This document shows positions 245-60,500 of a stretch of 64,000 nucleotides of DNA, in pieces (the first letter of the stretch is position 1; every line of letters starts with the position of its first letter). Origin of the DNA: Cytobacillus oceanisediminis 2691 (lineage in GTDB: Bacteria; Bacillota; Bacilli; Bacillales; Cytobacillaceae); NCBI RefSeq assembly GCF_007678455.1, contig NZ_VEEP01000010.1:62001-126000 (forward strand). The letters run 5' to 3'. Position numbers and translations under genes: made by a program. A model generated the notes under the pieces. The model had not been told where the DNA came from, did no database searches, and saw only the letters and a program-made list of their open reading frames with translations.

Positions 245-655
245 GCAGTTACCCATCAAACCTGTCCGAACTCCCACTTACTTCGGACAGCTTTTCTGCA
301 TTTCCCGCTAAACCTGTCCGAACTCCAGCTTACTTCGGACAGCTTTTCTTCGTTTCGCACTAAACCTGTCCGAACTTGGACTTACTTCGGACAGCTTTTC
401 TGCATTTCCCGTTAAACCTGTCCGAACTTCGACTTACTTCGGACAGCTTTTCTGCATTTCCCGCTAAACCTGTCCGAACTCCGACTTACTTCGGACAGCT
501 TTTCTCCGTTTTCCACTAAAGTTGTCCGAACTTGGACTTACTTCGGACAGCTTTTCACCTCCAGCACCCAAACCTGTCAAAATTACCTCACTTTCTTGAC
601 AACTTTTCACCTCCAACACCCAAACCTGTCAAGATCCCCTCGATATCCTCCCACC
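245..655. repeat. 52-bp periodic inverted-arm array A (about 8 units)
   Basis: Units start at 261, 313, 365, 417, 469, 521, 573 and 625, an exact 52-bp spacing. Six units carry the arms CTGTCCGAA and TTCGGACAG around an 11-nt loop, followed on the plus strand by CTTTTCT. The last two carry TGTCAA/TTGACA arms instead, the same arms as the array at 36.2 kb. The array lies between the yceI terminator and the MFS gene. It contains no open frame of its own. Function unknown. Confidence 0.9.
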
Positions 656-674
656 AACCACAATCCAAAGCAAA

Positions 675-709
675 CCAAAAAAACCGTTCAGAGTATCTCC
701 TGAACGGTT
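675..709 (-). terminator. Rho-independent terminator of yceI
   Basis: A perfect 10-bp stem (AACCGTTCAG/CTGAACGGTT) with an 8-nt loop is followed on the minus strand by a run of seven T. It lies 13 bases after the yceI stop codon. Confidence 0.9.
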
Positions 710-721
710 TCCAAATCGAAA

Positions 722-1249
722 TTATGCTGCTGGGTTTACTTCTAGTTCTACTTTGATCTTGATGTCTTTACCAACCAGAACGCCGCCTGTTTCTAGTGCT
801 GCATTCCATGTAAGACCGAAGTCTTCACGGTTTACCTTTGCTTCTGCTTCGAAGCCGTATACTTCGACGCCCCATGGGTTTGTGCCTTTGCCGCCGTATT
901 CGACATCGAATGTGACTGGCTTTGTTACGTCTTTGATTGTCAGGTCGCCAGTTACTTTGTAATCGTCGCCATCGCGAGTGATGTTTGTTGATTTGAAATC
1001 AATTGTTGGGTAGTTTTCAACATCAAAGAAGTCTGCTGATTTCAGGTGGTTCTCGCGGTCCTCGCTGCGTGTGTCGATGCTTGCAACATCGATTTTGAAT
1101 GTGATTGAAGCTGTTGTTAAATCTGCCAGGTCTGCTGCCTCAACATCAGCTGTATAAGAGCCGAATTGTCCTTTTACTTTTGATACCATCATGTGTTTTA
1201 CTTCAAATCCGATTGCTGAGTGCGCCTGGTCTACTACAAATTTAGCCAT
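722..1249 (-). CDS. yceI: YceI family protein
   Basis: 175 residues, full length for the YceI lipocalin-like beta-barrel family, which binds isoprenoid or quinone-like lipids in a hydrophobic pocket. Visible family features are the N-terminal HSAIGFEVKHMMVSKVKGQF-type strand pair, the ENHLKSADFFDVENYP segment near residue 70, LTIKDVTKPVTF near 105 and NREDFGLTWN near 140. No signal peptide is seen, so a cytoplasmic location is likely, unlike many Gram-negative members. The ATG follows GGGGGAATTTATA. The promoter region carries a perfect MhqR-like operator, which places the gene in electrophile/quinone stress. It is monocistronic with its own terminator. Confidence 0.9.
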   Translation of the reverse strand: MAKFVVDQAHSAIGFEVKHMMVSKVKGQFGSYTADVEAADLADLTTASITFKIDVASIDTRSEDRENHLKSADFFDVENYPTIDFKSTNITRDGDDYKVTGDLTIKDVTKPVTFDVEYGGKGTNPWGVEVYGFEAEAKVNREDFGLTWNAALETGGVLVGKDIKIKVELEVNPAA

Positions 1250-1273
1250 TATAAATTCCCCCTGTTTTGTTTT

Positions 1274-1339
1274 TATCTCGAATTCGAGATATGATTCTAA
1301 AAAAATATCTCAAAACTAATTATTTTTAATTCGAGATAA
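1274..1339 (-). promoter_or_regulatory. MhqR-like operator region of yceI
   Basis: The palindrome TATCTCGAATTCGAGATA at 1274-1291 is perfect over 18 bp and matches the known B. subtilis MhqR operator (ATCTCGAATTCGAGAT core). A second, looser pair of half sites (TATCTC near 1306 and CGAGATA ending at 1338) lies upstream. The same two-site layout occurs before the mhqO-like gene at 31.1 kb. MhqR represses quinone-detoxification genes, so derepression of yceI by quinones or other electrophiles is the inference. Confidence 0.75.
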
Positions 1340-1419
1340 ATTTATCATGAATTCAAGGTGACTGTCAATACCTTATCAACATTTTTTTTAGCAGAATTAA
1401 AGTTACTGTTTATCAAATT

Positions 1420-2064
1420 TTATAATGCTTTTCCCTCCTTCCCTTTCAGCCTGATCTCTTCGATCCTCCACTTTTCCGTCATATCGTAAAAGCCCCCACC
1501 TTTTGACATGACGAATTGATAATTGTTTTCCAAATCGTCAACGGTAAGATAAGTAAGGACAATTTTTCTTTTTTCAACATTAAACTCGCTAAGGTCCAGG
1601 ACTACACCAGGGTTCCAATCATGAGTACGATATTTAAAAGTAATAGTGCATGGACAATTGCCAGCACCATCAAAAGTGCCATAACCTATGAAATTTTGAT
1701 GCAATATTAATTCCATCGCTTCTTCATTATTCCCCGCCGCTTTAAAAGCTTCAACAACTTCGATCACATCCAAAAAGTCCTGATATGAAACAGCGGATTG
1801 CGCTGCGGCCATTTCATCCTCCAAGGTTGAAAGATTCCCGGCCAAAGTATCATTCTCATTCTTCAGATCATCCGCGATCCTCGACCGGTTTTCGACCTCG
1901 ATTTCCAGACTGGCAACCTTCTCTTCTAACCGCTTTTTGTCCTCCGCCAACCTCGAAGCCGAATCTGCTGTTCTGGCATTATCCAAAAGAGCAATCACTG
2001 TGATGACCAATAAAATAATGAGTACTGAGGTAACGTAATTTTTCTTCCCGCCCACCATTTTCAC
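1420..2064 (-). CDS. Hypothetical membrane-anchored coiled-coil protein
   Basis: 214 residues, not recognised as a named family. The N terminus has a short basic stretch (GGKKNY), then one transmembrane segment at about 11-28. A strongly charged heptad-rich stretch at about 32-92 is probably a coiled coil. A compact C-terminal domain follows, with a CPCTITFKYR motif near 138. This architecture suggests a single-pass protein with an extracytoplasmic sensor or structural domain. The start is probably GTG at 2064 with AAAAGG upstream; the ATG at 2058 is too close to GGGGTG. It lies 13 bp downstream of the next gene, so the two are probably cotranscribed. Confidence 0.7.
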   Translation of the reverse strand: MKMVGGKKNYVTSVLIILLVITVIALLDNARTADSASRLAEDKKRLEEKVASLEIEVENRSRIADDLKNENDTLAGNLSTLEDEMAAAQSAVSYQDFLDVIEVVEAFKAAGNNEEAMELILHQNFIGYGTFDGAGNCPCTITFKYRTHDWNPGVVLDLSEFNVEKRKIVLTYLTVDDLENNYQFVMSKGGGFYDMTEKWRIEEIRLKGKEGKAL

Positions 2065-2077
2065 CCCAATTGCCTTT

Positions 2078-2524
2078 TTAAAATTTCACGTTGACTTCTT
2101 CTGCGTCCTCCCAATTCGGATCAACTTGAGGAATGTATTTTTTCAATTCATCAGAGTAATCTTCAGGCTCTACCATGTTGAAAAGCTCAATATTCACCTC
2201 GGTATCATCTTTTTTCAATAATCCAAGGTAGCTCGATGACCCTCTCCAGAAATGGTAAAAGCCTTTAATTGACTTAATCTCTGCCGATTCCAGGTCTGAT
2301 TTGATCCATCCATCCTCAACTACAAAAACCACTTTCGGCTTGATTAAATAAATCGTCGCACGAACGAAAATCGGGACAAAGAACAAACACCCGATTCCAA
2401 ATGCTATCAAAATCCAATTAAGATTTAGGACGCCAAACAACAATGCCAGCAAACCCGGAACTGCGAAAACCGCTGACGCTAAAAATTTTACAACCAGCCT
2501 TCTCCGCCTCATCACTACCTTCAT
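2078..2524 (-). CDS. Hypothetical protein with two membrane segments
   Basis: 148 residues. A basic N terminus (MKVVMRRRRLVVKF) precedes two hydrophobic helices at about 14-32 and 36-58. The cytoplasmic or surface domain then resembles a small PH-like beta fold (KPKVVFVVEDGWIKSD) and ends in an acidic tail. The ATG follows GGGAAGGTGGC. It is the first gene of a two-gene minus-strand unit with the coiled-coil protein at 1420-2064. No function can be assigned; the pairing suggests a shared envelope role. Confidence 0.65.
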   Translation of the reverse strand: MKVVMRRRRLVVKFLASAVFAVPGLLALLFGVLNLNWILIAFGIGCLFFVPIFVRATIYLIKPKVVFVVEDGWIKSDLESAEIKSIKGFYHFWRGSSSYLGLLKKDDTEVNIELFNMVEPEDYSDELKKYIPQVDPNWEDAEEVNVKF

Positions 2525-2645
2525 ACTTTTGCCACCTTCCCATAGACATTTATAGGAAAATTATAAACTCTCATCCTTCCATTTTCAAAAATTTTCCACA
2601 ACATCTACAGCAAAAAATCCGCCCTCGTGTCGAAGGCGGATGCTT

Positions 2646-3548
2646 TTACGATCTCAGTTCAAAATAATCCATCGTGGAAGTCTCTTCAAAACCGCATGAT
2701 TTATAGAGGTTAAGCGCATTGGAATTGTCTGCCGCTACCTGCAGCATGATTTCCTCTGTGTTTGCCTCTTTCAGTTTTTCGATTGCCAGCAATAAAAGTG
2801 CCCGTCCGTATCCTTTGCGGCGGTGCTCCGGCAGTATGCCAAGGCCAAAAATCGCGCCAAGCTTCGAGGTCACCTGCAGATTCACTTTCCCGATGATTTG
2901 TCCGTCTTTTTCAACAAGGTACGAAGTCATCCCCCGCTTTTCCTCTTCCTCGGGAAGAATCATATCCTCGGCTTCGACACTTTCTTCGTCATCATTAAAA
3001 TAAATCACATTTTGCCTGGCAATCTCCTTCGCGTCCGCATTCGTCGCTTTCCTGAAAGCGAGACCTCCCCGCTTCTCTGTCGCAAAGCCCAGCGCCTCAT
3101 TTTTCAAAAACATCTCATATTCCGTGTGCTTATATTGCGCTCCACTCCCGGCAATAAACCCTTGACCGGCAGCCGAATCGCGGTCACTTAACAGCAGCAT
3201 GCTTCCTGAACCCCTGCGTTTCCACTCATTGACAACAAGCTCAAACAATTTTGAAAAAATCCCTTGGCGCCGATACTCTGGATCGACCATCCCATTTACT
3301 TCCCATGGTCCGCCAAAGCTGCCAATGCCAATATACCCAATCAGTCTCTCCCCATCGAAGTACATGAATTCATTTACTGCCTGAATGCCTTTTTCATTCC
3401 CGCCTACGCCCAGTTTATAATCAAGCTCGAGCTTCAAAGCAGTACGGTCATGTTCCATGCATCGCTCCTGGAGTTGGCCGACTATTTCATAATCATCTTC
3501 ATCAATTCCCTCTTTTAATTTGATCCACGGTTTCCCGATTTTCCTCAC
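2646..3548 (-). CDS. Tandem GNAT-domain N-acetyltransferase
   Basis: Two GNAT acetyl-CoA folds follow one another. The first has its pyrophosphate-binding loop at EYRRQGIFSKL, the second at EHRRKGYGRALL near the C terminus. The open frame extends upstream to 3605. That would overlap the previous gene by more than 100 bp, so a GTG at 3548 preceded by GATGGGG is the likelier start; this choice is uncertain. The substrate is unknown. Double-GNAT proteins of this size in Bacillus acetylate small amines or antibiotics. Confidence 0.8.
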   Translation of the reverse strand: MRKIGKPWIKLKEGIDEDDYEIVGQLQERCMEHDRTALKLELDYKLGVGGNEKGIQAVNEFMYFDGERLIGYIGIGSFGGPWEVNGMVDPEYRRQGIFSKLFELVVNEWKRRGSGSMLLLSDRDSAAGQGFIAGSGAQYKHTEYEMFLKNEALGFATEKRGGLAFRKATNADAKEIARQNVIYFNDDEESVEAEDMILPEEEEKRGMTSYLVEKDGQIIGKVNLQVTSKLGAIFGLGILPEHRRKGYGRALLLLAIEKLKEANTEEIMLQVAADNSNALNLYKSCGFEETSTMDYFELRS

Positions 3549-3744
3549 AAGCAGCACCCCATCTGTATAAAATCCCCACAATAAAGGATGTAACCATGAT
3601 AACAAGCGGAACCGCCATACTGCGGTCTACCCCTTCCATGATCCCAGCCACCATGATTCCCAACAGCATAAAACCTGATAGGGTAAAATAGACTAAAGAC
3701 TGATCCTTCTTCTGTTTGGTCGTATATTTTATTCGCTTAAACAC
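3502..3744 (-). CDS. Small membrane protein, 80 residues
   Basis: A GTG start at 3744 follows AGAGGTGTGAACCG, a good binding site. The product has a basic N terminus (MFKRIKYTTKQKK) and two hydrophobic segments at about 17-35 and 43-61, then a charged tail. I do not recognise a family. Its 3' end overlaps the GNAT gene, so the pair may be translationally coupled. Confidence 0.55.
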   Translation of the reverse strand: MFKRIKYTTKQKKDQSLVYFTLSGFMLLGIMVAGIMEGVDRSMAVPLVIMVTSFIVGILYRWGAACEENRETVDQIKRGN

Positions 3745-3839
3745 CGGTTCACACCTCTTTCTCCCAAGAAAATTCTAACAAACCATCATGTAAAAATAAC
3801 ATCCAGAATATTTTTTTAAAAAACCGGTCTAAAACAGTG

Positions 3840-3890
3840 AAAAAAATAAAAACAGCATGCTAAATCTCATATGATTTTTAGCATGCTGTT
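3840..3890 (-). terminator. Strong hairpin terminator
   Basis: A 14-bp stem (AACAGCATGCTAAA with TTTAGCATGCTGTT) is followed on the minus strand by TTTTTATTTTTTT. It would end a leftward transcript entering from 3.9-4.1 kb, where no clear gene is visible. Confidence 0.75.
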
Positions 3891-4168
3891 ATTGTTGCCA
3901 TAAGAATTTATGCCATTTGAACATTAGAGTTTGCACTATCATTAATACGCCATGATCTTGATGCACAACAAATGGTCCGGCTTTAGATGACAGTCCTTGT
4001 CCAACAAAGCACCCTCTAAATTAATAATGAAATGAATACGTATTGTATATTGTCTTCTTACTCACGAGCAGCTTAATTGAAACCAGAGATAAAGATTGTA
4101 AATCCAATGTATTAGTGATAGCCTGTACAGACATAGTGTCTTTTCCTATGTAAAGGAGTAAATACACT
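3891..4168. other. Intergenic stretch, no gene assigned
   Basis: No convincing open frame on either strand. On the minus strand a TTG-started 20-codon frame (near 3951-4013) follows TTAGAGGG and runs toward the strong leftward terminator. It could be a small peptide or a gene remnant, but nothing else supports it. Confidence 0.4.
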
Positions 4169-4321
4169 ATGCTTAGTAAGGATGAACACTTACTATTTAT
4201 AAGAGAACTTGGACGTTTACAGAACGAGTTAAAATACTGTAGCGATGACCAAGTAGGGAATGCTATTCAACAGGACATTCTACTACTCCTAAACGCATTA
4301 TCTTTGACTGCTAGAAATTAG
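4169..4321 (+). CDS. Small helical protein, 50 residues
   Basis: ATG at 4169 follows AAAGGAG with a 10-nt spacer. The 50-residue product (MLSKDEHLLFIRELGRLQ at the start, SLTARN at the end) is predicted to form two amphipathic helices. Its stop codon lies inside the stem of an intrinsic terminator, as expected for a real monocistronic small gene. The pattern REL-x2-L near residue 12 and a DILLL block near 36 recall the product at 57161-57373, so the two may be distant relatives. Function unknown. Confidence 0.65.
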   Translation: MLSKDEHLLFIRELGRLQNELKYCSDDQVGNAIQQDILLLLNALSLTARN

Positions 4322-4331
4322 CAGTTTTTTT
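4307..4331 (+). terminator. Terminator of the 50-residue gene
   Basis: ACTGCTA/TAGCAGT stem with a 5-nt loop followed by seven T on the plus strand. The stop codon of the small gene is part of the stem. Confidence 0.85.
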
Positions 4332-4509
4332 AATTCCGTCCATATGTATAAATACACTATCTTACTAAACATTCCTGCTTTGTATGTTCAATATGACTCT
4401 TTAGCTTCTGTTTCTAAAATTATGGAGTGACATTAGGATTAGAGATGATGTGGCAAATAAGAGGATAATCCCTACCCATAGTCACATTCCACCATAAATA
4501 CCTCGTATA

Positions 4510-4550
4510 CTCCTTCAACAAATGGCTCCCAGTCATACTGGCAGCCATTT
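4510..4550 (-). terminator. Probable terminator of the first doxX
   Basis: A 13-bp stem with one mismatch (AAATGGCTGCCAG/CTGGGAGCCATTT read on the minus strand) lies about 30 bases after the doxX stop. The T tract is weak. The 180 bases to its left hold no gene, only a second copy of the motif TAAATACACTAT that also precedes the 50-residue gene. Confidence 0.55.
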
Positions 4551-4577
4551 CTATTTAAAAGGGGGATTTTACAAAGG

Positions 4578-5093
4578 TTAAGCAGCGTTGCGTTCGACGG
4601 CTTCTCCGCGTTTGAATACAGTTTTGCGGATGAATGGAACAACCCAGCGGTCCAATCCGTATTTACCGGCGTTGAAGCCAGCAGCCAGGATGATGAACCC
4701 GAAGAAGATGTCAGTTGGGTTGTGAGATACGGTTCCGGCAAGGAAGAAGCTGAAGTTCATCACAAGTCCAAAGAACATCGCGGCAGTTGTCAGTGTTCCA
4801 AGCAGCAATCCAAGTCCGACAAGGAATTCCCCCAGCGGGACGATTGTATTGAAAATATCAACATTCGGGATCGCGAAGTTTTCAAGGAAGTTCACGTACC
4901 AGCCATACACCATATTTCCATCTGGACCTTTAACCGGGTTTGCGACAGCTCCTTTTAAAAAGCCTGTAGCGTCGAATCCAGGGCCAGTCAATTTGCCCCA
5001 TCCAGCAGTCATCCAGTTGTATCCAAGCCATACCCTAATGACAGTCAATATACCAGCAGCAACATTGTTTTCTCTTAACCATTTAGCAAACAT
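4578..5093 (-). CDS. DoxX family membrane protein, copy 1
   Basis: 171 residues with four hydrophobic segments, typical of the DoxX/SURF4-like family of small membrane proteins linked to quinone and thiol redox stress; MhqP of B. subtilis belongs to it. Features are RVWLGYNWMTAGWGKL near residue 25, an NVDIFNTIVPLGEFLVGLGLLLG helix pair, and FFGFIILAAGFNAGKYGLDRWVVPF near the C terminus. ATG at 5093 is spaced 8 nt from GGAG; the upstream GTG has no spacer. The protein and its promoter are nearly identical to 7244-7759. The promoter has an MhqR-like dyad on the -35 and an exact Rex site. Confidence 0.9.
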   Translation of the reverse strand: MFAKWLRENNVAAGILTVIRVWLGYNWMTAGWGKLTGPGFDATGFLKGAVANPVKGPDGNMVYGWYVNFLENFAIPNVDIFNTIVPLGEFLVGLGLLLGTLTTAAMFFGLVMNFSFFLAGTVSHNPTDIFFGFIILAAGFNAGKYGLDRWVVPFIRKTVFKRGEAVERNAA

Positions 5094-5114
5094 GTTCCTC
5101 ACTCCAATAAGTTA

Positions 5115-5185
5115 ATTAGTATTATTACACTCTTAAGATATCAAATTCATCTTGAAAATAGTGCGTTTTGTGAACAAATTCACAA
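5115..5185 (-). promoter_or_regulatory. doxX copy 1 promoter with MhqR-like dyad and Rex site
   Basis: Reading leftward, TTGTGAACAAATTCACAA at 5168-5185 is an exact match to the Rex consensus (TTGTGAA-N4-TTCACAA). Downstream, TTGATA (5139-5144) and ACTAAT (5115-5120) with an 18-bp spacer form a plausible promoter. The -35 is embedded in a dyad with AAGAT and ATCTT arms (5135-5153) resembling an MhqR half-site pair. Confidence 0.65.
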
Positions 5186-5342
5186 TTCCGTTGAAATCTT
5201 TTGAACGAATGGTGACAATGGCGTTTTTAGAGGACAATTTTTAAAAAGGCTGCCTTCTCTTGACTATTGATGATCATCTTTCTTCCGCAATCCAACCAAC
5301 TTCCGTACAACAGGAAGAGGCAAAACTTCCTTCCTGCCCCCT

Positions 5343-5371
5343 GCATATCGCTCCAAAATTTAGACATCATA
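5343..5371 (+). promoter_or_regulatory. Probable sigma-G promoter of the yhcN-like gene
   Basis: GCATA at 5343-5347 and CATCATA at 5365-5371 with a 17-bp spacer fit the forespore sigma-G consensus (GMATR, CATnnTA). The ATG lies 32 bases downstream, and members of this lipoprotein family are sporulation-expressed in B. subtilis. Confidence 0.5.
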
Positions 5372-5403
5372 AAGATGACTAAACCAAACTAGGAGTGATC
5401 TAG

Positions 5404-6102
5404 ATGAAAAAATCAATCATCATTGCAGGATGTGCAGTTTTTACAATGGGCCTGGCCGGATGCGGAGCGAATAATAATGCAGCCGAAAACAATCGTGACC
5501 AGCAGGTAGAAATCAACCAGGTTAGACGTGGTCCTGTAGCTACCGAGGATAACAGACTTCAGCTTGCTGACCGTACGGAACGCCAAATTGAGCAGATGCC
5601 CGAGGTTGATGATGCACGGGTCATCATCTCCGATAACAATGCGTATGTTGGAGTAAGACTGGCGGACAATAACCTCGACAACGATGGAAATGCTCAGGTC
5701 AATGATGCACTGGATGGCAATGGCAGGACTTTTGCCAAAAATGGCCGCGTTGACCAGGATGACAGCTCAGCCGGGAATGATGGCATTATTGACGGGCAGG
5801 GCGATGCTGGAAAAGACCGCAGGAATGATGGCAATAATGGTGCCAATATATTGGGCAATGGAAATGACAATGACATGAATGGAACAGTCCGCAATAATGG
5901 CAAGACAGTAACTTTATTGGAAAAGCAGATTGAGCAAAGAGTCCGCCAGACTAACAAAGGGATCGACAGAGTTTATGTTTCTGTTGACCGCACCGCTTAT
6001 AACAGAATGGGAACCTTCGCCGATGATATCCGCACCGACAGAAACAGGGACGGCCTGTTCGAAGATTTCCGCAATTCGATGGACGATCTCTTCAGAAGAT
6101 AA
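5404..6102 (+). CDS. YhcN/YlaJ family sporulation lipoprotein
   Basis: 232 residues. The signal peptide MKKSIIIAGCAVFTMGLAGC ends in a lipobox (LAGC), so the mature protein is lipid-anchored at Cys20. The DARVIISDNNAYVGVRL block near residue 75 and GIDRVYVSVDRTAYNRM near 190 are the two strands characteristic of YhcN/YlaJ spore membrane lipoproteins. Between them lies a long insertion very rich in Asn, Asp and Gly (about 95-165), unusual for the family and probably disordered. A sigma-G-like promoter and a dedicated terminator flank the gene. The likely location is the inner spore membrane, with a role in germination or outgrowth. Confidence 0.85.
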   Translation: MKKSIIIAGCAVFTMGLAGCGANNNAAENNRDQQVEINQVRRGPVATEDNRLQLADRTERQIEQMPEVDDARVIISDNNAYVGVRLADNNLDNDGNAQVNDALDGNGRTFAKNGRVDQDDSSAGNDGIIDGQGDAGKDRRNDGNNGANILGNGNDNDMNGTVRNNGKTVTLLEKQIEQRVRQTNKGIDRVYVSVDRTAYNRMGTFADDIRTDRNRDGLFEDFRNSMDDLFRR

Positions 6103-6106
6103 AATC

Positions 6107-6138
6107 AAAAGCATAGGATTTGCTTCCTATGCTTTTTT
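6107..6138 (+). terminator. Terminator of the sporulation lipoprotein gene
   Basis: AAAGCATAGGA/TCCTATGCTTT stem with a 6-nt loop followed by TTTT on the plus strand, directly after the stop codon. Confidence 0.9.
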
Positions 6139-6212
6139 GCTGCCCATTAAAAACAGGAATTTCTCCCTTTCCTCGCGAAATATATCTTAGATCTATACTA
6201 AGGGAGATTAAC

Positions 6213-7184
6213 ATGGTCGTTGACACTGAGATAAAAGAGGAGATCTTTGAAGCGGTCACACGCTTGTTTGGAATCGAAATTCAAAGCTGGAATCCAATCC
6301 ATTTAGGATATAAAAACTTAAAATGGCAGGTCAAAACAACTGCCGGCGATTTATTTGTAAAGCAATATAACAAGCAGCGATATCCGGAGGAAAGGGTTCC
6401 CGGCCTGGAAAAAGCACTGCAGATTCAAAACATGTTGTACGAGGAGGGCCTGCCGTGTCCTAAGCTTTTTCCCTATAAAGGGAATTTCGTCTTAAATACG
6501 GAGAATGGCGAACGCTTCGTTCTCATGGGTTTTAATAAGGGATTCACCCTCCCTCCAGGCAGCGCTAACTCCTATCAAATGTATAGTCTGGGAAAGGTCA
6601 TTGGCAGGATGCACGTGCTGCTTGAGAAAAATATAGCCAGGGAACCGCTTCATTGGGATCTTTTATCAAAACCTGAAATGCTGGAAAACTGGAATGAGAG
6701 ATATGAAGAAGCCATTGCTCTTGATTGCAGCAAAACCCTTCAAAATCTGGAGATACAAAGAAGGATTCTCGCGGAAAACGATACATCCTTATTTACTCAA
6801 TGTGATAAAGGCTGGGCACATTGGGACTTGTTTGCGGATAATATTTTATTCAGCGAGAATGGGGTTTCTTCAATTCTTGATTTTGACCGGATGAATGTTG
6901 TCTATACCGATTTTGATATTTCACGGCCGATCTTGTCATGCTGCGTTGATGAAAATCGAATGAACGTGGATGGCGTTTCGGCATTTGTCAGAGGTTATCG
7001 GGAGTACAAGCCCCTGCCTTTTGCACAACTGATAAAATCGATAAAACTAACCTGGTGGAGAGAAGCTGAATGGGTCCGGGTTGAGAAGCCTGGAGACTCC
7101 ACGCCCCTTAAACGGTTCAGTGAAGAGAATGTGTGGATAGCGGAAAATTGGGATTGCCTGGAGGACTTGTTTTCAGGAATATAA
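6213..7184 (+). CDS. Aminoglycoside phosphotransferase-like (APH/ChoK fold) protein
   Basis: 323 residues from the ATG at 6213, which follows AAGGGAG by 6 nt; the longer upstream frame lacks a binding site and runs through the preceding terminator. The protein-kinase-like fold shows a G-loop-proximal KNLKWQVKT strand, a lysine in LFVKQYN, the Brenner catalytic motif HWDLFADNILF near residue 205 and the metal-binding SILDFDRM near 225. These match the phosphotransferase family that includes spore-coat kinases such as CotS/YtaA. With a sporulation lipoprotein upstream, a spore-coat or capsule role is as likely as small-molecule phosphorylation. Confidence 0.8.
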   Translation: MVVDTEIKEEIFEAVTRLFGIEIQSWNPIHLGYKNLKWQVKTTAGDLFVKQYNKQRYPEERVPGLEKALQIQNMLYEEGLPCPKLFPYKGNFVLNTENGERFVLMGFNKGFTLPPGSANSYQMYSLGKVIGRMHVLLEKNIAREPLHWDLLSKPEMLENWNERYEEAIALDCSKTLQNLEIQRRILAENDTSLFTQCDKGWAHWDLFADNILFSENGVSSILDFDRMNVVYTDFDISRPILSCCVDENRMNVDGVSAFVRGYREYKPLPFAQLIKSIKLTWWREAEWVRVEKPGDSTPLKRFSEENVWIAENWDCLEDLFSGI

Positions 7185-7211: not shown

Positions 7212-7243
7212 CGATTTATGAATATGGGGGGAGTTAACTCTGG

Positions 7244-11895: not shown

Positions 11896-11934
11896 ACTAT
11901 GCCGGGCGACAAGCCCGGTCGTTTTCTTGGAACT

Positions 11935-12175
11935 TTTCCTCTTTCTCGGGCACATATTCCCCTTTTATCTGACCCAACTCCTTCACTTTCCTCTTTTACG
12001 GTCACATAATCCCTTTTTATGTGACCCAACTCCTTCACTTTCCTCTTTTACGGGCACATAATCCCCTTTTATGTGACCGAAATCCTTCACTTTGCTCTTT
12101 TTCGGGCACATATTCCCCTTTTATGTGACCCAACTCCTTCACTTTGCTCTTTTACGGGCAGATAGGACTCTTCAG
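11935..12175. repeat. 52-bp periodic inverted-arm array B (about 5 units)
   Basis: CACATA anchors occur at 11951, 12003, 12055 and 12107, and CAGATA at 12159, all 52 bp apart. In the second unit GGTCACATA (12000-12008) and TATGTGACC (12018-12026) are perfect complementary arms around a 9-nt loop. Units are joined by a T/C-rich plus-strand tract. The array sits between convergent genes (ZIP and putP). Confidence 0.88.
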
Positions 12176-12265
12176 CATTACCGTTCCCTTATGTATCTTC
12201 CAAATCAAAAACCTATGAAGCTTCATCATCGAGAGCTATGTCAAGAAGCCGGGAAAGTTCAAATA

Positions 12266-27339: not shown

Positions 27340-27690
27340 CAGAGGTGTGTTCGTTTTTCGATACCGATGACGGACATTTTTTCTCGATTCACTCATGTTT
27401 CTGTCCATCATCACCTTGATGACGGACACTTTTTCTCGATTTCATCTTGTTTCTGTCCATCATCGCCTTGATGACGGACACTTTTTCTCGATTCCCTCGT
27501 GTTTCTGTCCGTCATAGCCTTGATGACGGACATTTTCCCACGATTCCCTAGTGTTTCTGTCCGTCATATCCTTGATGACGGACATTTTCCCACGATTTCC
27601 TCGTGTTTCTGTCCGTCACAGCCTTGATGACGGACACTTTTTCAGAATTTCCTCGTATTTCTGTCCGTCATAGCCTTAAAGCAAAAGCAC
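27340..27690. repeat. 52-bp periodic inverted-arm array D (6-7 units)
   Basis: GATGACGGAC starts at 27366, 27418, 27470, 27522, 27574 and 27626, exactly 52 bp apart, with a partial unit at the right end. Arms TGTCCGTCAT and ATGACGGACA pair over 10 bp around a 7-nt loop (AGCCTTG or similar). Each hairpin is followed on the plus strand by CTTTTTCTCGATT or CATTTTCC. It sits between convergent genes, after the MMPL terminator. Confidence 0.9.
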
Positions 27691-36127: not shown

Positions 36128-36213
36128 CTTTGTTTCTCACCTTCCTTTTTCTTACTTTTACCTAATGCTAGAGAAAAAAACATTTGAATGTGCAAAAATA
36201 AATGGTGGTCTGA

Positions 36214-36895
36214 TGACTATTTTGACAGTTTTTCTCCTTGAGACCTTGTCCCTGTCTTAATTACAGGCTTTTCTTGACAGCTTTTCTCCTTGTGACCTTA
36301 TACCTGTCAAGATTCCGGGCTTTTCTTGACAGCTTTTCCCCTTGAGACCTTGTACCTGTCTTAATTACAGGCTTATCTTGACAGCTTATCTCCTTGTGAC
36401 CTTAAACCTGTCAGGATTCCGGGCTTTTCTTGACAACTTTTCTCCTTGAGACCTTGTCCCTGTCTTAATTACAGGCTTATCTTGACAGCTTTTCTCCTTG
36501 AGACCTTGTACCTGTCTTAATTACAGGCTTATCTTGACAGCTTTTCTCCTTGTGACCTTAAACCTGTCAGGATTCCGGGCTTTCCTTGACAGCTTTTCTC
36601 CTTGAGGCCTTAAACCTGTCTTAATTACGGGATTTTCTTGACAGCTTTTCTCCTTGAGGCCTTATACATGTCAAGATTCCGGGCTTTTCTTGACAGCTTT
36701 TCCCCTTGAGGCCTTAAACCTGTCTTAATTACGGGCTTTTCTTGACAGCTTTTCTCCTTGAGGCCTTTAACCTGTCAAAATTGCAGGCCATTCTTGACAG
36801 CTTTTCTCCTTAAAATCTCAAACCTGTCATAATACCGCTTTTACCTTGACAGCTTTTCCTCCGATTATCCTCAAACTTGTCCAAAGGCAATACTA
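36214..36895. repeat. 52-bp periodic inverted-arm array C (13 units)
   Basis: TTGACAG anchors fall at 36222, 36274, 36326, 36378 and 36430 and continue at 52-bp steps to 36846. Arms CTGTCAAG and CTTGACAG pair in many units; others read CCTGTCTTAATTACAGG, a smaller hairpin. The plus strand carries GACAGCTTTTCTCCTTGAG between units. The blocks GACAGCTTTTCT and TAAACCTGTC are shared with array A. It lies upstream of the tspO gene and has no open frame. Confidence 0.92.
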
Positions 36896-52449: not shown

Positions 52450-52552
52450 AAGTAACGTTGATCAATTAACACCTCATATGTATCTGCAAAACTACATGAG
52501 CCTATCAATTTATCCCCGTAATACCTTCCCAATTCCCGAAGAAGATAACACG

Positions 52553-52732
52553 CATAAATATGGCAGGTCTCCTGACTTGTGCTTCACCCTACTTTAAGGC
52601 CTTCCCATCCATTTTTAAGACAGTGGTTCATCCTTATTTCGTCAGCACTTACAGTTGCGGGAACAGTTCTGGACTTTCACCAGATTCCCTATTAAGTCTT
52701 GTTCAGACACCATACTTACCGGCAATTTCAAT
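52553..52732 (-). ncRNA. Cobalamin riboswitch
   Basis: Read on the minus strand, all conserved blocks are present: TTAATAGGGAATCTGGTGAA, AGTCCAGAACTGTTCCCGC, AACTGTAAGTGCTGACGA, CCACTG, GATGGGAAGGC and the B12 box GTCAGGAGACCTGCC. An intrinsic terminator follows 105 bases downstream, then the thioesterase-nrdA-nrdB operon. With adenosylcobalamin bound the switch should terminate transcription. Such switches occur before class I reductases where a B12-dependent class II enzyme can replace them. Confidence 0.95.
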
Positions 52733-54327: not shown

Positions 54328-55269
54328 GTGAAATATTATATCTTATTGCTACTGACCAGCTTTCTTTGGGGCGGTAATTTTATCGTGGGAAAAACGCTAG
54401 TTGAGCATGCTTCCCCTGCCACCCTGACCATCCTAAGATGGGCTATTGCAATCATCTTCCTGATCCCGCTTGTCTGGCGGATAGAAAAAAAGCTGATTCC
54501 TCCAAAGGAATCGATCCTCCCGTTATTTTTGATGGGGGTCACTGGCGTGGCCTTGTTTCAGGCATTGCAATTTATGGCCCTGGAAAAGACGTCGGCTACC
54601 AACGTCGGTTTAATATCGACGTTAAACATGTTTTCAATTGCTGCATTCTCTTTCTTTTTTCTAAAGGAAAAAATAAACTCTCTTCAGGTCCTTTCAATGG
54701 TCGTCTCATTATTTGGCGTTTTGCTTGTTCTTTCAAAAGGAAATTTCGAGTCATTGTTTGCCTTGAAGGTCAACACTGGGGATATCTATATGCTGGCAGC
54801 AGTGGGCATGTGGGGAATGTATTCGGTCTTTAGCAAATGGGCGATGGCATCCGTTACACCGATGATGTCCACCCTTTATTCTGGCATTTTCGGTTTGCTG
54901 GTCCTTCTGCCTTTTACGATTTCAGATTTCACAGTCACAAACGTAAATGCATCATTCATCCAATCTATTTTATATACAGGCCTGATCTCCACAGTCCTTT
55001 GCATGGTCCTATGGAATATCGGGGTAAATAAACTCGGCCCAAGTGCCGCCGGGCTGTTTCTGAATTTCAACCCAGTATTCACAGCTGTTTTAGCCTTTGC
55101 TTTTTTGGGTGAGAAAATGACATGGACCCAGGGCGCCGGCAGTATCATCGTCATCGCAGGCTGCTTCTTATTTACCTTTTTGAAAAACAAGCCTGCTCCT
55201 TTAAAAGAAAAGCAGCTGGCAATTTCTAGACCTATTTTAGCTGGAGAGCCAATCAAGCAAAGAAATTAA
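54328..55269 (+). CDS. EamA family (DMT) transporter
   Basis: 313 residues from GTG 54328, 9 nt after AAGGGGAG; an upstream ATG at 54283 has no site. Ten helices in two EamA repeats: LTSFLWGGNFIVGKTLVEHASP opens the first, AAVGMWGMYSVFSKWAM the second, and SAAGLFLNFNPVFTAVLAFAFLGEKMTW is helix 9. Divergent pairing with an Lrp-type regulator suggests an amino-acid or related metabolite exporter. Confidence 0.9.
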   Translation: MKYYILLLLTSFLWGGNFIVGKTLVEHASPATLTILRWAIAIIFLIPLVWRIEKKLIPPKESILPLFLMGVTGVALFQALQFMALEKTSATNVGLISTLNMFSIAAFSFFFLKEKINSLQVLSMVVSLFGVLLVLSKGNFESLFALKVNTGDIYMLAAVGMWGMYSVFSKWAMASVTPMMSTLYSGIFGLLVLLPFTISDFTVTNVNASFIQSILYTGLISTVLCMVLWNIGVNKLGPSAAGLFLNFNPVFTAVLAFAFLGEKMTWTQGAGSIIVIAGCFLFTFLKNKPAPLKEKQLAISRPILAGEPIKQRN

Positions 55270-55275
55270 CAAAGA

Positions 55276-55309
55276 ACAGCCTTATGCATAACCGGATAAG
55301 GCTTTTTTA
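55276..55309 (+). terminator. Terminator of the EamA gene
   Basis: AGCCTTAT/ATAAGGCT stem followed by TTTTTT on the plus strand. Confidence 0.88.
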
Positions 55310-55330
55310 TGTTTCTGGATTCCATAATGA

Positions 55331-55446
55331 GTTGGTCGATATATTGCGAAATGTGGTCGATATAATCTTAAATGTGGTCGATAAAATCAAAAATCCGCTG
55401 ATATATTTTAAAATGTGGTCGATATATTGGAATTTTCGCCAATAAC
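55331..55446. repeat. 21-bp periodic GGTCGATATA element (copy 2)
   Basis: GGTCGATA cores at 55334, 55355 and 55376, a CGCTGATATA variant at about 55396, another GGTCGATATA at 55417 and CGCCAATAA at 55437 follow each other every 20-21 bp. This is the longest of the three copies and lies upstream of narK. Confidence 0.85.
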
Positions 55447-55671
55447 CGGCGCCCCGACATGCTTTTTGCCTTTATTCGAGGCTAATCTCGATCTCGTTGT
55501 CATGTAATCGCACACTTTTTATGTTTTCTCCATGTAAATTCATCCGTTTCCAAAATCTAAAGAGCCTCCCCACACCCAAACACCCCTATAGGTGTTTTCC
55601 CTCAGACTTTCACTGCTCCCTGTCAAAATTTGTTCAAGACTTTTTGACAGAATTGTGATGGTGTCTCCAGA

Positions 55672-55717
55672 TGTGAGGTTCGTCACAACTGATGTGTGAT
55701 ATAAATGGTTTATTAAT
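55672..55717 (+). promoter_or_regulatory. Fnr box and promoter of narK
   Basis: TGTGAGGTTCGTCACA at 55672-55687 is an exact TGTGA-N6-TCACA Fnr site. A TATTAAT at 55711-55717 lies about 31 bp downstream of its centre, as expected for an Fnr-activated -10 with the site near -41. Confidence 0.75.
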
Positions 55718-55753
55718 CTTGTAAACACTCATATCACATATGGAGGAATTAAA

Positions 55754-57061
55754 ATGGCTCGCATAAATACATGGAACCCTGAAGACGATCGTTTCTGGCA
55801 ATCTGAAGGAAAAAAACATGCCCAACGTAACTTATGGATTTCGGTACCTTCCTTGATGCTCGCATTCATTGTCTGGCAAATCTGGTCTGTGGTTGCAATT
55901 CGCCTTAATGATATTGGTTTTAATTTTACTGATCAACAGCTGTTCGCATTGGCAGCCATGCCTGGTCTTGTTGGTGCCACGCTGCGGTTTGTGTACACAT
56001 TTGGAGTAGGAATGATCGGCGGCCGCAACTGGACAGTCCTGACAACTGCAGTGCTCGCAATTCCCGCTGTCGGCATCGGCTTCGCGGTCCAGAATCCTGA
56101 CACACCTTACTCAGTGATGCTTTTACTCGCTGCACTTTGCGGCCTGGGTGGCGGAAACTTTTCCAGTTCTTCATCCAACATCAGCTTCTTTTTCCCGAAA
56201 AAAGCACGTGGTACTGCACTTGGTATCAATGGCGGTTTAGGCAACATGGGTGTATCTGTTGTTCAATTCGTAACACCACTAATCATTACAACTGGAACCT
56301 TCGCTTTTATCGCTGGCGATGGACAGAAATTATCTAACGGCCAGGAAGTATGGCTTCAAAACGCAGCATTCATCTGGCTGATCCCAATCGCAATTGTCAC
56401 AATCGCTGCATGGTTCGGCATGGATAACCTGCCTGGCACAAAGCAATCGTTCTCTGATCAATTCGTCATTGTAAAAAGAAAGCACACTTGGATCATGACA
56501 TGGCTATACGTGGCAACATTCGGATCTTTCATCGGTTACTCAGCGGCATTCCCGCTTTTATTGAAAACGCAGTTCCCTGAATATATCTCACTAGCCTTCC
56601 TTGGCGCCTTCCTTGCTGCGGGTGCACGCCCTATCGGCGGATGGATGGCTGATAAAATGGGCGGAGCAAAGCTGACATCCATCGTCCTGGTTGTGATGAT
56701 GGCTGGTGCTGGAAGCGTCATTTACTTCCTTGGCACGAAGCAATTTGGCGGCTTCCTGGCTTCATTCATGGTTCTGTTCATCGCTTCTGGCATCGGTTCT
56801 GGATCAACATTCCAGATGATCCCTGGAATCTTTGTTCCGAAAGAAGCAGCCCCAGTACTCGGCTTTACGGCAGCATTCGCAGCGTACGGATCCTTCCTGA
56901 TTCCAAAGCTGTTCGGCTGGTCCGTGAAAATTTCCGGAGGGTATGTACCAGCATTCTCCATCTTCATCGGCTTCTATGTGATCTCAATCGTCCTCAACTG
57001 GTACTATTACCAGAGGAAAGAATCTGTGGCCGTATTTGAAGCACAAAAGACAACAGCGTAA
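55754..57061 (+). CDS. narK: Nitrate/nitrite transporter NarK
   Basis: 435 residues, 12 helices. The nitrate-nitrite porter signatures GGGNFSSSSSNISFFFPKKARGTALGINGGLGNMGVSVVQ (about 130-170, containing the first G-rich helix) and GIGSGSTFQMIPGIF near 355 define the NNP branch of MFS. Conserved Arg residues that bind the anion lie in TLRFVYTF and GARPIGGWMADK. ATG follows GGAGG. An Fnr box upstream implies anaerobic induction; no nitrate reductase is in the window. Confidence 0.95.
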   Translation: MARINTWNPEDDRFWQSEGKKHAQRNLWISVPSLMLAFIVWQIWSVVAIRLNDIGFNFTDQQLFALAAMPGLVGATLRFVYTFGVGMIGGRNWTVLTTAVLAIPAVGIGFAVQNPDTPYSVMLLLAALCGLGGGNFSSSSSNISFFFPKKARGTALGINGGLGNMGVSVVQFVTPLIITTGTFAFIAGDGQKLSNGQEVWLQNAAFIWLIPIAIVTIAAWFGMDNLPGTKQSFSDQFVIVKRKHTWIMTWLYVATFGSFIGYSAAFPLLLKTQFPEYISLAFLGAFLAAGARPIGGWMADKMGGAKLTSIVLVVMMAGAGSVIYFLGTKQFGGFLASFMVLFIASGIGSGSTFQMIPGIFVPKEAAPVLGFTAAFAAYGSFLIPKLFGWSVKISGGYVPAFSIFIGFYVISIVLNWYYYQRKESVAVFEAQKTTA

Positions 57062-57065
57062 ATTT

Positions 57066-57100
57066 GAAAGCCTCTCCCATTTTGCGGGGGAGGCTTTTTA
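57066..57100 (+). terminator. Terminator of narK
   Basis: AAGCCTCTCCC/GGGGGAGGCTT stem followed by TTTTA on the plus strand. Confidence 0.88.
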
Positions 57101-57160
57101 CCATATTTTATGTTTTAAAGCCAGAAATTTTGGGTATATAGAACTATACAGATAGAGAGG

Positions 57161-57373
57161 ATGATTATTTTTCCAAAGGGGGAGATTAAGCTGCTAACAC
57201 TTTTTCTATTCCAAAGGGAACTGATCCAACTGAAAATTGAATATCAGTCAAGTGCCGACACATTCATCAAACAGCAAATTCTTAAAGACATTGCGCTCCT
57301 GACAGAAGCAATAAATGAAATGAAAGAGATGTTGGAAGCAAAACGCTCCATGCATTATGCCGATGATATATAG
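57161..57373 (+). CDS. Small helical protein of unknown function
   Basis: Up to 70 residues; start unclear. ATG 57161 has AGAGAGG directly adjacent without spacing. AAGGGGGAG at 57176 is well spaced only from a CTG at 57191. The conserved-looking part is LFQRELIQLKIEYQSSADTF then IKQQILKDIALLTEAI, two amphipathic helices recalling the 50-residue protein at 4169. A bidirectional terminator follows immediately. Confidence 0.55.
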   Translation: MIIFPKGEIKLLTLFLFQRELIQLKIEYQSSADTFIKQQILKDIALLTEAINEMKEMLEAKRSMHYADDI

Positions 57374-57374
57374 C

Positions 57375-57407
57375 AAAAAGAAACCGTATTTTGCACGGTT
57401 TCTTTTC
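57375..57407. terminator. Bidirectional terminator
   Basis: AAAGAAACCGT/ACGGTTTCTTT stem with an 8-nt loop between convergent genes. Confidence 0.9.
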
Positions 57408-57411
57408 TTTA

Positions 57412-58404
57412 TTATTCTTCTGCTGATTTTTCAATTGGCGCAGGTTTGCCAAAAAAGTACCCCTGGAACAGCTGATATCCTTTTTCCTTTAGCCACTCAA
57501 AATCTTCCGCAGATTCAATTCCTTCCGCAAGCGGAACAGATCCCAGTTTCTTCGCTTCAGTTAAGAATGCAGAAGCAGTCCGCTGCTTTTGAAGATTTGC
57601 AGCCACTCCCTGTACATACTTCATATCTAGTTTCATATAATGCGGCTGCAGGTCGGAAAGCAGCTCCAATGTGCTGTACCCTTCACCCACATCATCAAGC
57701 GCGTAACGGAAACCTTTTTCTTTGTAAAAAGTGAGGATTCTTTTCAGATGATCCGTATCCTCGACATTTTCTGTTTCAACGACTTCAAAAACAAGCCGTC
57801 CCGGATCGACTCCCAGTCGGTCAGCCAGCATCGTCGTCGACTTCAGGCAGAATTCAGGAGAATAAATCGATGTCGGAATAAAATTGATGAACGCCTTCTT
57901 ATCCGTAAATGAGGCGGCCCTGACGGCGGCCATACGGCAAATCCGATCAAGAGCATACAACCGGTCACGCTTTTTGGCAGCTCCGAAAATTGCACCAGGA
58001 TAAATCACCGAACCATCCTCTCGGTAAAATCTGGCTAGCATCTCATGGGCGTAAACCTTGCCTCCAGCATCAACTATCGGTTGGGCATGGCAAGTAACCA
58101 GCTCTTTTCGGATAACCTCGTCGATCCATTCACTTTCGAGGATTTCTTCTGCTTCCGAGAGAAGCCTCCATTTTTCTTCATCCAGCCGAAAAAACACCTT
58201 GCCCGGCTCCATATGATCATGGCAAAAATCAAGGAAATCCCTCATCCCTGCTTCGCTAACAACCAGTGAACCCCCTTCCGACCGCACCAGTTCACCGTTA
58301 CGCTCCATGTGACGAACCACTTCAGGAAAAATGGTAACATTCTGCTCCCCTTCTACCCTTATCTCAAACTGTAAATTTCCAACCACACACGCATTGCAAC
58401 TCAT
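57412..58404 (-). CDS. EAL domain protein with N-terminal sensor-like domain
   Basis: 330 residues. Residues 1-95 form a small unassigned domain opening with CNAC and followed by a BLUF-less, PAS-less beta-rich stretch. Residues about 100-325 are an EAL fold for cyclic-di-GMP. The EAL tripeptide is HEMLAR, so Glu is kept but Ala is Met. Other catalytic positions are present: FINFIPTS (Asn), FEVVETE, ALDDVGEGYS (two Asp), MKLD (Lys), AEGIE and FQGYFFGKP (Gln). Activity as a phosphodiesterase is therefore possible. Confidence 0.85.
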   Translation of the reverse strand: MSCNACVVGNLQFEIRVEGEQNVTIFPEVVRHMERNGELVRSEGGSLVVSEAGMRDFLDFCHDHMEPGKVFFRLDEEKWRLLSEAEEILESEWIDEVIRKELVTCHAQPIVDAGGKVYAHEMLARFYREDGSVIYPGAIFGAAKKRDRLYALDRICRMAAVRAASFTDKKAFINFIPTSIYSPEFCLKSTTMLADRLGVDPGRLVFEVVETENVEDTDHLKRILTFYKEKGFRYALDDVGEGYSTLELLSDLQPHYMKLDMKYVQGVAANLQKQRTASAFLTEAKKLGSVPLAEGIESAEDFEWLKEKGYQLFQGYFFGKPAPIEKSAEE

Positions 58405-58535
58405 AGTATATAGCGTCCTCTCAAGTTAGGTAATTCTTACTATATCACTGTGTTAATAATAGGTAAATTTAATAGTTACATTAAACCAGATTTCTGCTGA
58501 GGCATGGTCCTGTTCCACTAACTACAGTTGCGCAA

Positions 58536-58578
58536 ACAAAAAAGCGCCTCATCCGTTTTATCGGAAAAGGCACGCTTT
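58536..58578 (-). terminator. Terminator of the amine oxidase gene
   Basis: A long imperfect stem (GCGTGCCT/AGGCGC with inner TCCG/CGGA pairing) followed by TTTTTT on the minus strand. Confidence 0.75.
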
Positions 58579-58594
58579 CGTTTTATATCTATCG

Positions 58595-59701
58595 TTACAG
58601 TTTATTCTCATCAACCAGTTTCATCAAAACAGATGCCGCTCGCTCCGCTGACAAAAGAGCTCCTTCAAGATGCCCGCCATGACCAGGCGCTGTCTCAGTA
58701 CCTGCAAAAATAACCCTCTTGCCCCACGAACTCATTCCTGCCGGGAGGCCATAGTCCGGAAAGCTGGTCAACGGAGGAAGATCTTGTTCCACTGCTGTTT
58801 GAGGATCACCTGCCCAATCTTTATACAGGAAAGCCATCGGTTTTTCAGCCGAAGGGCCAAAAAGCCGTGTCAATTGGTCAATGACAAGATAATGTAAGTG
58901 TTCTTCACCAAGTTCTTGCCGGATTTTTGCCGGAATGCCGAAAAAGCCAAAAAGTGCGCCGTACCCTGTTTCTGGCGATGCATCATGGATCTCCTGCAAA
59001 GGACCAGACCAGCTGGTGACCTGGCCGGAAAGACCGTCTTCCCTCCAGAATGGACGGTCATAAATCGCAATCGCTTTGGCCTGGCCCGCCATCCATGTTG
59101 GCTTGTCTTTCATGCTCGCTAAAATTCCATCTGGAAGAGAAGGTGAAAAGTCGATCCTTTCAGCGATGATCCGAGGCGGCAATGCCAGGATTACCGCTCC
59201 AGCATGAATGCTCTTCTTTTTCCCTGTAAGTTCTTCCGCTTCGATTGTCACTTGATCATCGAGTTGGATAGCCGTAACCCGTGTATTCAGCTCGATCGTG
59301 CCCGAAGGAAGCGTGAATGCGATGGCATCAATAAGGGATTGGATACCGCCAGCCAGACGCACAGACCTCTCAACAGCACCTTCTGCCAAAACATGCCGCT
59401 GGATGGGGCCAGTTTTCGATTGCTCATAAAGCATTGCGCCCGAGGTATGCTGTTCAATAGTGGACAATCCAAGTTCTTTGACCAAATTAGTGATGACAGG
59501 TTCATGATCCGGCCAGAACCAGGTAGGACCCAGATCAAACTTGCCGAGCTCCGGCATGTCTTGGGCCTCCATGCTCAAAACCCTGCCTCCAATTCGATCA
59601 CGCGCCTCCAACACCCGGCAGCTGATTCCATTTGCCTGAAGCAAAGCAGCAGCACGAAGCCCTGCCAGACCCGCTCCGACAATGACGACCGGTTCATTCA
59701 T
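58595..59701 (-). CDS. Flavin monoamine oxidase family protein
   Basis: 368 residues from ATG 59701 (after GGAGGGAACAACT). The dinucleotide loop VIVGAGLAGLRAAALLQANG at 6-25 and the ARDRIGGRV motif define the FAD amine oxidase family, and the C-terminal KRVIFAGTETAPGHGGHLEGALLSAERAAS closes the FAD site. There is no signal peptide. It is somewhat shorter than polyamine or monoamine oxidases (about 450), so the substrate domain is reduced. The substrate is unknown. Confidence 0.88.
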   Translation of the reverse strand: MNEPVVIVGAGLAGLRAAALLQANGISCRVLEARDRIGGRVLSMEAQDMPELGKFDLGPTWFWPDHEPVITNLVKELGLSTIEQHTSGAMLYEQSKTGPIQRHVLAEGAVERSVRLAGGIQSLIDAIAFTLPSGTIELNTRVTAIQLDDQVTIEAEELTGKKKSIHAGAVILALPPRIIAERIDFSPSLPDGILASMKDKPTWMAGQAKAIAIYDRPFWREDGLSGQVTSWSGPLQEIHDASPETGYGALFGFFGIPAKIRQELGEEHLHYLVIDQLTRLFGPSAEKPMAFLYKDWAGDPQTAVEQDLPPLTSFPDYGLPAGMSSWGKRVIFAGTETAPGHGGHLEGALLSAERAASVLMKLVDENKL

Positions 59702-59734
59702 AGTTGTTCCCTCCAATAATTAACACTTGTTCGG

Positions 59735-60500
59735 ATTCGGGTACAGATTCGGAAATTTCTCCCGCTCTTAACGTTGATTTTGTCCGAAGTTGACCCAGGT
59801 TCGGACGTTTCTCCGGCTCTTCCCGTTGACTTTGTCCGAAGTTGACCCGGGTTGGACATTTCTCCGGCTTTTCTTGATGACTTTGTCCGAAGTCAGACCA
59901 GGTTCGGACATTTCACGAACTCTTTACGATGATTTTGTCCGAAGTTGACCCAAGTTCAGACATTTCTCCGGCTTTCCATACTGATTTTGTCCGAAGTTGA
60001 CCCAGGTTCGGACATTTCTCCGGCTTTCCATACTGATTTTGTCCGAAGTTGACCCAGGTTCGGACATTTCTCAGGCTCTTACCGATGACTTTGTCCGAAG
60101 TCAGATCAGGTTCGGACATTTCTGTAGCTCTTACCGATGACTTTGTCCGAAGTCAGACCAGGTTCGGACATTTCACGAGCTCTTCACGATGACTTTGTCC
60201 GAAGTTAGATCAGGTTCGGACATTTCACGAGCTCTTCCCGATGACTTTGTCCGAAGTTAGATCAGGTTCGGACATTTCACGAGCTCTTCACGATGACTTT
60301 GTCCGAAGTCAGATCAGGTTCGGACATTTCTCCTGCTCTTACTGATGATCTTGTCCGAAGGTGAACCTGGTTCGGACATTTCTCCCGCTCTTACCGTGAA
60401 CTTGTCCGAAGTCAGACCAGGTTCGGACATTTCACAAGCTCTTCACGATGATTTTGTCCGAAATAGCCCCAAGTTCGGGCATTTAGACTTGTCCGAAAAA
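59735..60500. repeat. 52-bp periodic inverted-arm array E (about 15 units)
   Basis: TTCGGAC cores fall at 59748, 59800, 59852, 59903, 59955, 60007, 60059, 60111, 60163, 60215, 60267, 60319, 60371, 60422 and 60474: every step is 52 bp except two of 51, each next to a unit missing one base. Arms TTCGGACA and TGTCCGAA pair; the plus strand carries ATTTCTCCGGCTCTT between them. It lies between the amine oxidase and maltose acetyltransferase genes and contains no gene. Confidence 0.93.

Follow-up and report, generated by a model that had tools for sequence, protein, structure and literature searches.

REP/BIME sequences are short intergenic palindromic repeats that occur in many copies per genome, MIRU/VNTR loci are intergenic tandem repeats of variable copy number, and KOPS/SRS are polar motifs with a strand bias along the direction of replication. 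Arrays that share features with each of these are found in a 64,000-nucleotide stretch of Cytobacillus oceanisediminis 2691 (contig NZ_VEEP01000010.1, positions 62,001 to 126,000; hereafter the window), where five intergenic tandem arrays are built from units that almost always measure 52 bp. Like REP/BIME and RAYT-linked repeats, they are short intergenic palindromes of high genome copy number; unlike REP/BIME, they run head-to-tail with a fixed 52-bp step and are mostly not solitary. As in MIRU/VNTR loci, copy number differs between strains (G000 and G061, two genomes of the same species), whereas here the period is constant over unrelated sequences and families and there is a helical phase within the unit. 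The strand bias recalls KOPS/SRS, but the arrays are long rather than octamers and possess no single motif.

Two further comparisons come from the Bacillus literature. The stem-loop repeats Bant-1, Bcr1, Bhal-1 and Bhal-2 measure 72-167 bp, and the excerpts of the relevant article contain no mention of “tandem” (PMC2267715); the arrays resemble bcr and the other Bacillus stem-loop repeats in being stem-loop repeats of Bacillus-type genomes, and differ from them in size. RemA, according to excerpts of another article, binds poorly conserved AT-rich 7-bp repeats at 3-bp intervals and forms rings that are proposed to wrap DNA; the same is proposed for AsnC/LrpC octamers (PMC8481266). A ring-forming Bacillus protein such as RemA, proposed to wrap DNA, indicates that sequence-tolerant architectural proteins exist. 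The arrays, known here from sequence alone, are similar to RemA/LrpC targets in their poor conservation, AT-richness and helical periodicity; known RemA sites lie upstream of promoters, whereas the arrays exceed those sites in length and mostly lie downstream of genes. We consider it quite possible, if short of probable, that the length and phase of the 52-bp unit are selected at the duplex level via a sequence-tolerant architectural protein.

The arrays were detected with Tandem Repeats Finder and by autocorrelation of the window at lags 20-300, the latter providing the coordinates:

Array 1, 239..658, plus strand: about 7-8 units of 52 bp, with arms CTGTCCGAA-N11-TTCGGACAG and CTGTCAA/TTGACA in the last units.
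Array 2, 11923..12185, plus strand: about 4.4-5 units of 52 bp, with arms CACATAA-N7-TTATGTG.
Array 3, 27354..27688, plus strand: 6 units of 52 bp, with arms TGTCCGTCAT-N7-ATGACGGACA.
Array 4, 36206..36859, plus strand: about 12 units of 52 bp, with arms CTGTCA/TGACAG.
Array 5, 59734..60484, plus strand: about 14 units, two of which measure 51 bp and the others 52 bp, with arms TGTCCGAA/TTCGGACA.

Tandem Repeats Finder reports period 52 at all five sites, with 5.8, 4.4, 6.0, 12.2 and 14.3 copies for arrays 1 to 5, and no further period above 21 in the window except a 23-bp row within array 5 and 156-bp multiples of array 1. Lag 52 and its multiples dominate the autocorrelation, and 20 block shuffles gave zero at lag 52. 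The one-base-shifted lags 51, 103, 155, 207 and 259 stem from array 5 only, in which two 51-bp steps stand among otherwise 52-bp steps. With that exception, the claim of an earlier note on this DNA, that five arrays step by 52 bp, is borne out at positions close to those that it gave. Its placing of the arrays between genes also holds, as our own simple script called no gene that overlaps any of 19 arrays (five from the window, the other 14 from 400 kb of its genome); mechanical open reading frames of 95-115 amino acids touch array edges. At its end (60464-60500), array 5 has a shortened unit with only 8 bases between the arms, after which comes a run of A.

Every array unit carries an inverted repeat. 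In the TGTCC type, TGTCC-N17-GGACA is completed by 25 bp to a total of 52, and in array 2, the least alike of the five, CACATAA-N7-TTATGTG is followed by 31 bp; arm sequence and arm distance vary between arrays, and the total stays 52. The arms are the better conserved part of the unit (0.870 versus 0.801 for the rest), being better kept in 24 of 29 arrays. The sequences had been taken to be unrelated, and this proved mistaken: TGTCCGAA/TTCGGACA arms are common to arrays 1 and 5, array 4 and the end of array 1 have CTGTCAA/TTGACAG arms (array 3 has its own TGTCCGTCAT/ATGACGGACA pair), and all five arrays fall in one single-linkage cluster at a threshold of 31/52 positions, the best of 2000 shuffled pairs reaching 30. 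Judged by their letters, all five belong to one loose family, and because they share a palindromic design and loose common descent they do not represent five independent cases.

An excess of 52-bp arrays is also found across the same genome and in relatives, arrays of other sequence included, which answers a check proposed with the original observation. A contiguous 400 kb of that genome contained 17 lag-52 segments and a single array at 53; extrapolation from 18 period-52 arrays in 464 kb gives roughly 190 per genome, so the feature would be a large one. The pattern GTCCGAA-N{4,30}-TTCGGAC occurs at 127 places in the window’s genome, all but one of the matches listed having N11. TGTCC-N17-GGACA-N25-TGTCC is present in 32 of 61 neighbourhood genomes, namely the window’s own, 18 of 19 from the genus, 7 of 17 from other genera of the family (three of these seven with one to three matches) and 6 of 24 from other families of the order, while a reversed control is present in none. 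Among 149 genomes spread over the phylum, the window’s own has the same pattern and three others have a single match, the same number as the control’s three single matches. Finally, a scan of named genomes returned, among the matches listed, at least 116 stretches from Mesobacillus, Neobacillus, Cytobacillus, Evansella, Texcoconibacillus, Aquibacillus, Peribacillus and others. Three records titled Chryseobacterium sp. ISL-80 (L099, L127, L129) also contain 52-bp arrays, and their organism name looks wrong.

Other arms are found at the same period. For example, 52-bp arrays with CACTC/GAGTG arms occur in G008, a genome of the same genus without a TGTCC match, while those of G057, from another family, have GGCGACGAG/CTCGTCGCC arms and those of G024 have GTTACCAT/ATGGTCAC arms. 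A census of intergenic tandem arrays covered 18 samples from 17 genomes of the order (2.064 Mb, with genes called by our own script); six samples are orthologous to the window and hence not independent, several genomes were picked for having pattern matches, and the G041 and G057 stretches included places known from the pattern search. Within these limits, 62 of 124 arrays with lags of 20-150 have lag 52, four have 51 and three have 53 (69 at 51-53); the others comprise 24 at 20-21, 13 at 40-42, two each at 27 and 34, one each at 37, 62 and 73, and the rest at 88-134. Twelve coding arrays were encountered, with lags divisible by three in all. Zero arrays at 52 were found in G034 (100 kb) and G055 (80 kb), the latter having one at 51, and 400 kb from seven genomes with no arrays or none known contained one two-unit 52-bp repeat among seven repeats.

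The length of the unit is held far more tightly than its letters. Although neighbouring units diverge at 16.2% of sites, a step of exactly 52 bp is kept in 527 of 544 cases, and 17 steps depart from their array’s mode. Six pairwise comparisons of non-array intergenic DNA gave 0.082-0.110 gap openings per mismatch, and a simulation at the indel/substitution ratio of 0.09 typical of such DNA, which leaves out homogenisation and the detection threshold, made 112 of 396 steps depart, the proportion in real 52-bp arrays being about nine-fold lower. Departures amount to 18 of 147 steps in the 20-21 arrays and 1 of 22 in the 40-42 arrays. That the step is almost always 52 though the sequences differ widely suggests that spacing matters more than letters.

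A helical phase is seen within the units as well. The fifth AA/TT harmonic (10.4 bp) is the top one in 41.4% of all 1207 units and in 41.7% of the 453 that come from samples obtained without a pattern search, relative to 9.0% of 3507 non-array intergenic windows and 6.6% of 12636 gene windows, and in 16 TGTCC-type arrays the A/T maxima lie at 7.6, 18.0, 28.4, 38.8 and 49.2. By family, this harmonic leads in 5 of 9 single-linkage families, and when 62 arrays are clustered greedily it leads in 8/11, 6/16, 7/19 or 9/22 clusters depending on the threshold (binomial p 5e-7 to 2e-3). This phasing is among the points that support the earlier interpretation; intrinsic curvature, by one wedge model, was not above shuffles in 52 arrays (mean z 0.34). 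Phase without excess static curvature points to contact or wrapping, not to a plain bend. Since the 52-bp excess recurs, AA/TT is phased and indels are rare relative to substitutions, it is fair to read the data as a constraint on spacing that leaves the sequence freer. The five arrays share design and descent, and period-51 and period-53 arrays also occur. One 53-bp array of about 13 units (G000:C111:144620-145305), in which the 10.4-bp harmonic ranks tenth, lies beside 52-bp arrays.

If length and phase are indeed selected, the arrays would be long duplex-DNA tracks of units of exactly five helical turns, successive units of which would turn the same face to a sequence-tolerant architectural protein; one candidate kind is a RemA- or LrpC-like protein that wraps DNA or forms filaments. 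The inverted-repeat arms may serve as symmetric contact points, unequal recombination or slippage would alter the number of units, and units of the wrong length would lose phase and be removed.

Several observations weigh against this proposal, beyond the omissions of the simulation and the null result for curvature. The 10.4-bp harmonic is not the top one in 58% of units, and its initial z of 25 ignores relatedness: 142 of 159 arrays fall in one loose single-linkage cluster, and inherited phase therefore accounts for part of the signal. In the five 51- and 53-bp arrays this harmonic is top in two, second in one and tenth in two. Three-turn arrays, expected if phase were the sole rule, are absent at lag 30-32 among the 124 intergenic arrays. 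The strand bias described below is not predicted by duplex length and phase alone, and the role that a protein may play is one that we infer. A general helical quantisation of intergenic repeats was considered and rejected; lags cluster at 20-21 (24 arrays) and 40-42 (13), with none at 30-32, and it is not claimed because the 20-21 and 40-42 classes could match helix turns by chance.

The same common descent lies behind the main rival, a functionless satellite, in which an ancestral 52-bp repeat would have spread in Bacillaceae, with recombination amplifying and contracting it and gene conversion and unequal exchange purging length variants. The single cluster of 142 arrays is what this account expects, and units from different sites and species are alike (a G016 array resembles both array 4 and the first C111 array). 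Unit number and presence are also fluid. Between G000 and G061, the one pair compared, array 2 has 5 versus 14 units and the other four arrays differ by about one, so that unit counts do vary between strains. Of six relatives, two have array 5 and four lack it, while the place of array 4 has an array in all six, with consensus units 62-96% identical to the window’s and all stepping by 52. At the place of array 3, G061 and G019 have several units (two to three by eye in the latter), G009, G016 and G013 have a single degenerate arm-25-arm unit, and in G018 the place has been lost along with the neighbouring gene. Only the two nearest relatives allowed arrays 1 and 2 to be placed, and where one G013 array stands the window’s genome has 149 bp of other sequence. 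Mere descent fits less well with the eight further clusters that keep period 52 with other sequence, some of them in other families, or with the 10.4-bp phase in four of these eight; moreover, homogenisation should purge substitutions like indels, yet substitutions are plentiful. On balance, a functionless satellite is possible but somewhat improbable.

The arrays are also oriented by replication, a property that the earlier interpretation, only partly supported overall, had missed. By local GC skew, 55 of 62 arrays have their purine-rich strand as the leading strand, and the bias is seen beside co-directional leading genes (25/28), in head-on (5/5), convergent (15/18) and divergent (9/10) settings, with one array at the edge of the window. 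This suggests that the amplification or use of the arrays is tied to fork direction. In G061, a complete genome of the same species, TTGACAGCTTTTC is confined to the minus strand at 0.45-2.40 Mb (56/56) and to the plus strand from 2.66 Mb (44 of 63 forward places listed). All 16 clusters listed obey this switch, which falls between 2.402 and 2.661 Mb.

Such polarity would suit marks that, in the manner of KOPS/SRS, show a translocase or the replication machinery the direction of the fork or terminus, as would the leading-strand purine share of 0.57-0.62 in arrays versus 0.51-0.52 in other intergenic DNA. However, only 11 of 17 clusters of the sister motif CGGACAGCTTTTC in G061 follow the polarity, five oppose it and one is near the switch point; no motif is common to all arrays, and composition could itself produce polarity, which makes polar marks very unlikely.

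Strand bias that tracks replication is also expected if the arms fold as single-strand hairpins, either in RNA or on the template of the lagging strand, and the units are amplified in a fork-dependent orientation by replication slippage or by an enzyme that reads hairpins. Consensus stems of at least 7 uninterrupted pairs occur in 126 of 154 arrays compared with 5 of 154 shuffled, in a set partly picked by arm pattern, and two-unit pieces of five arrays fold as single-stranded DNA on both strands with z of -1.5 to -8.4. Against this, changed arm bases are seldom matched by their partners (18/423 across the long loop, 21/616 across the short loop), loop lengths vary whereas 52 does not, and a 10.4-bp A/T phase would be meaningless for a single strand. 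In a comparison meant to reveal which strand folds, G-U and A-C pairs number 40 and 37 in 161 distinct hairpins. With so little compensation at the unit level, selection on hairpins via compensatory change was rejected. A Y1 (HUH) transposase as driver was likewise discarded, since its co-occurrence with arrays is not consistent: PF01797 (RAYT/Y1_Tnp) had no match in the array-rich G006, G014 and G015 (187, 44 and 199 forward pattern matches) and one in the window’s genome. Single-strand hairpins therefore appear rather improbable as the explanation. In addition, a search of 464 kb for solitary elements outside arrays, with perfect arms of at least 9, showed no peak at spacers of 25 or 31, although degenerate single units occur.

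Gene context invites one more explanation, that the arrays are tandem intrinsic terminators. Many begin about 50 bp past a stop codon, convergent spacers are over-used (18 of 62 arrays versus 121 of 854 spacers of at least 150 bp), and in the pyrimidine-rich direction a short hairpin is followed by CTTTTC. Nevertheless, separate terminators sit between several genes and their arrays, array 2 has no T-tract after the stem, and direction tracks replication and often opposes the flanking gene, the 5/5 head-on arrays running contrary to a gene-based expectation; terminators are hardly credible here. The flanking genes (YceI, ZIP-like transporter, SSF symporter, MMPL, SelO, TspO, ABC-F type ATPase, amine oxidase and hexapeptide acetyltransferase) are ordinary ones with dissimilar functions, a point against a single regulon.

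The earlier statement that no described element follows this rule agrees with our searches, in which no named family was matched. An Rfam scan of the window at the gathering score placed no family on the arrays, the sole match being a cobalamin riboswitch at 52545-52729 on the minus strand. Open PubMed Central full text yielded no published match to such arrays (subscription papers fall outside that scope, and a description may exist elsewhere), and the repeat letters used as a text query returned unrelated papers only among the matches listed. CRISPR was rejected because the whole unit is repeated, spacers included, rather than identical repeats with unique spacers. Plasmid and phage collections held no match for array 4, the only array searched.

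Repeats of other periods were noted in passing. The window carries a 21-bp array with a TGGTCGATATA core at 55327-55403 (55333-55428 in Tandem Repeats Finder), and the 20-21-bp arrays of several genomes (24 of 124 intergenic arrays) combine about 10 conserved with 10 variable bases and have cores of their own (TTCGCTATAAAA, AATTGCAC, TATTCCGAC). Intergenic repeats of about 122 bp at G000:C111:249762-249956, and in stretches of G015, G032 and G045, are perhaps another element.

The favoured reading, selection on length and phase at the duplex level, can be broadened to a satellite chromatin of bacteria. Each genome would carry hundreds of intergenic tracks selected only for their length (five turns), their rotational phase and their strand relative to the fork, with letters that are nearly free, and these tracks may act as docking or wrapping rails for an architectural protein. 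We regard this as unlikely, though worth stating. If the length rule is under selection, the arrays would represent a natural experiment on DNA geometry apart from DNA sequence, provide a direct assay for sequence-tolerant nucleoid proteins, and offer a way to test why bacterial intergenic DNA follows the direction of replication.

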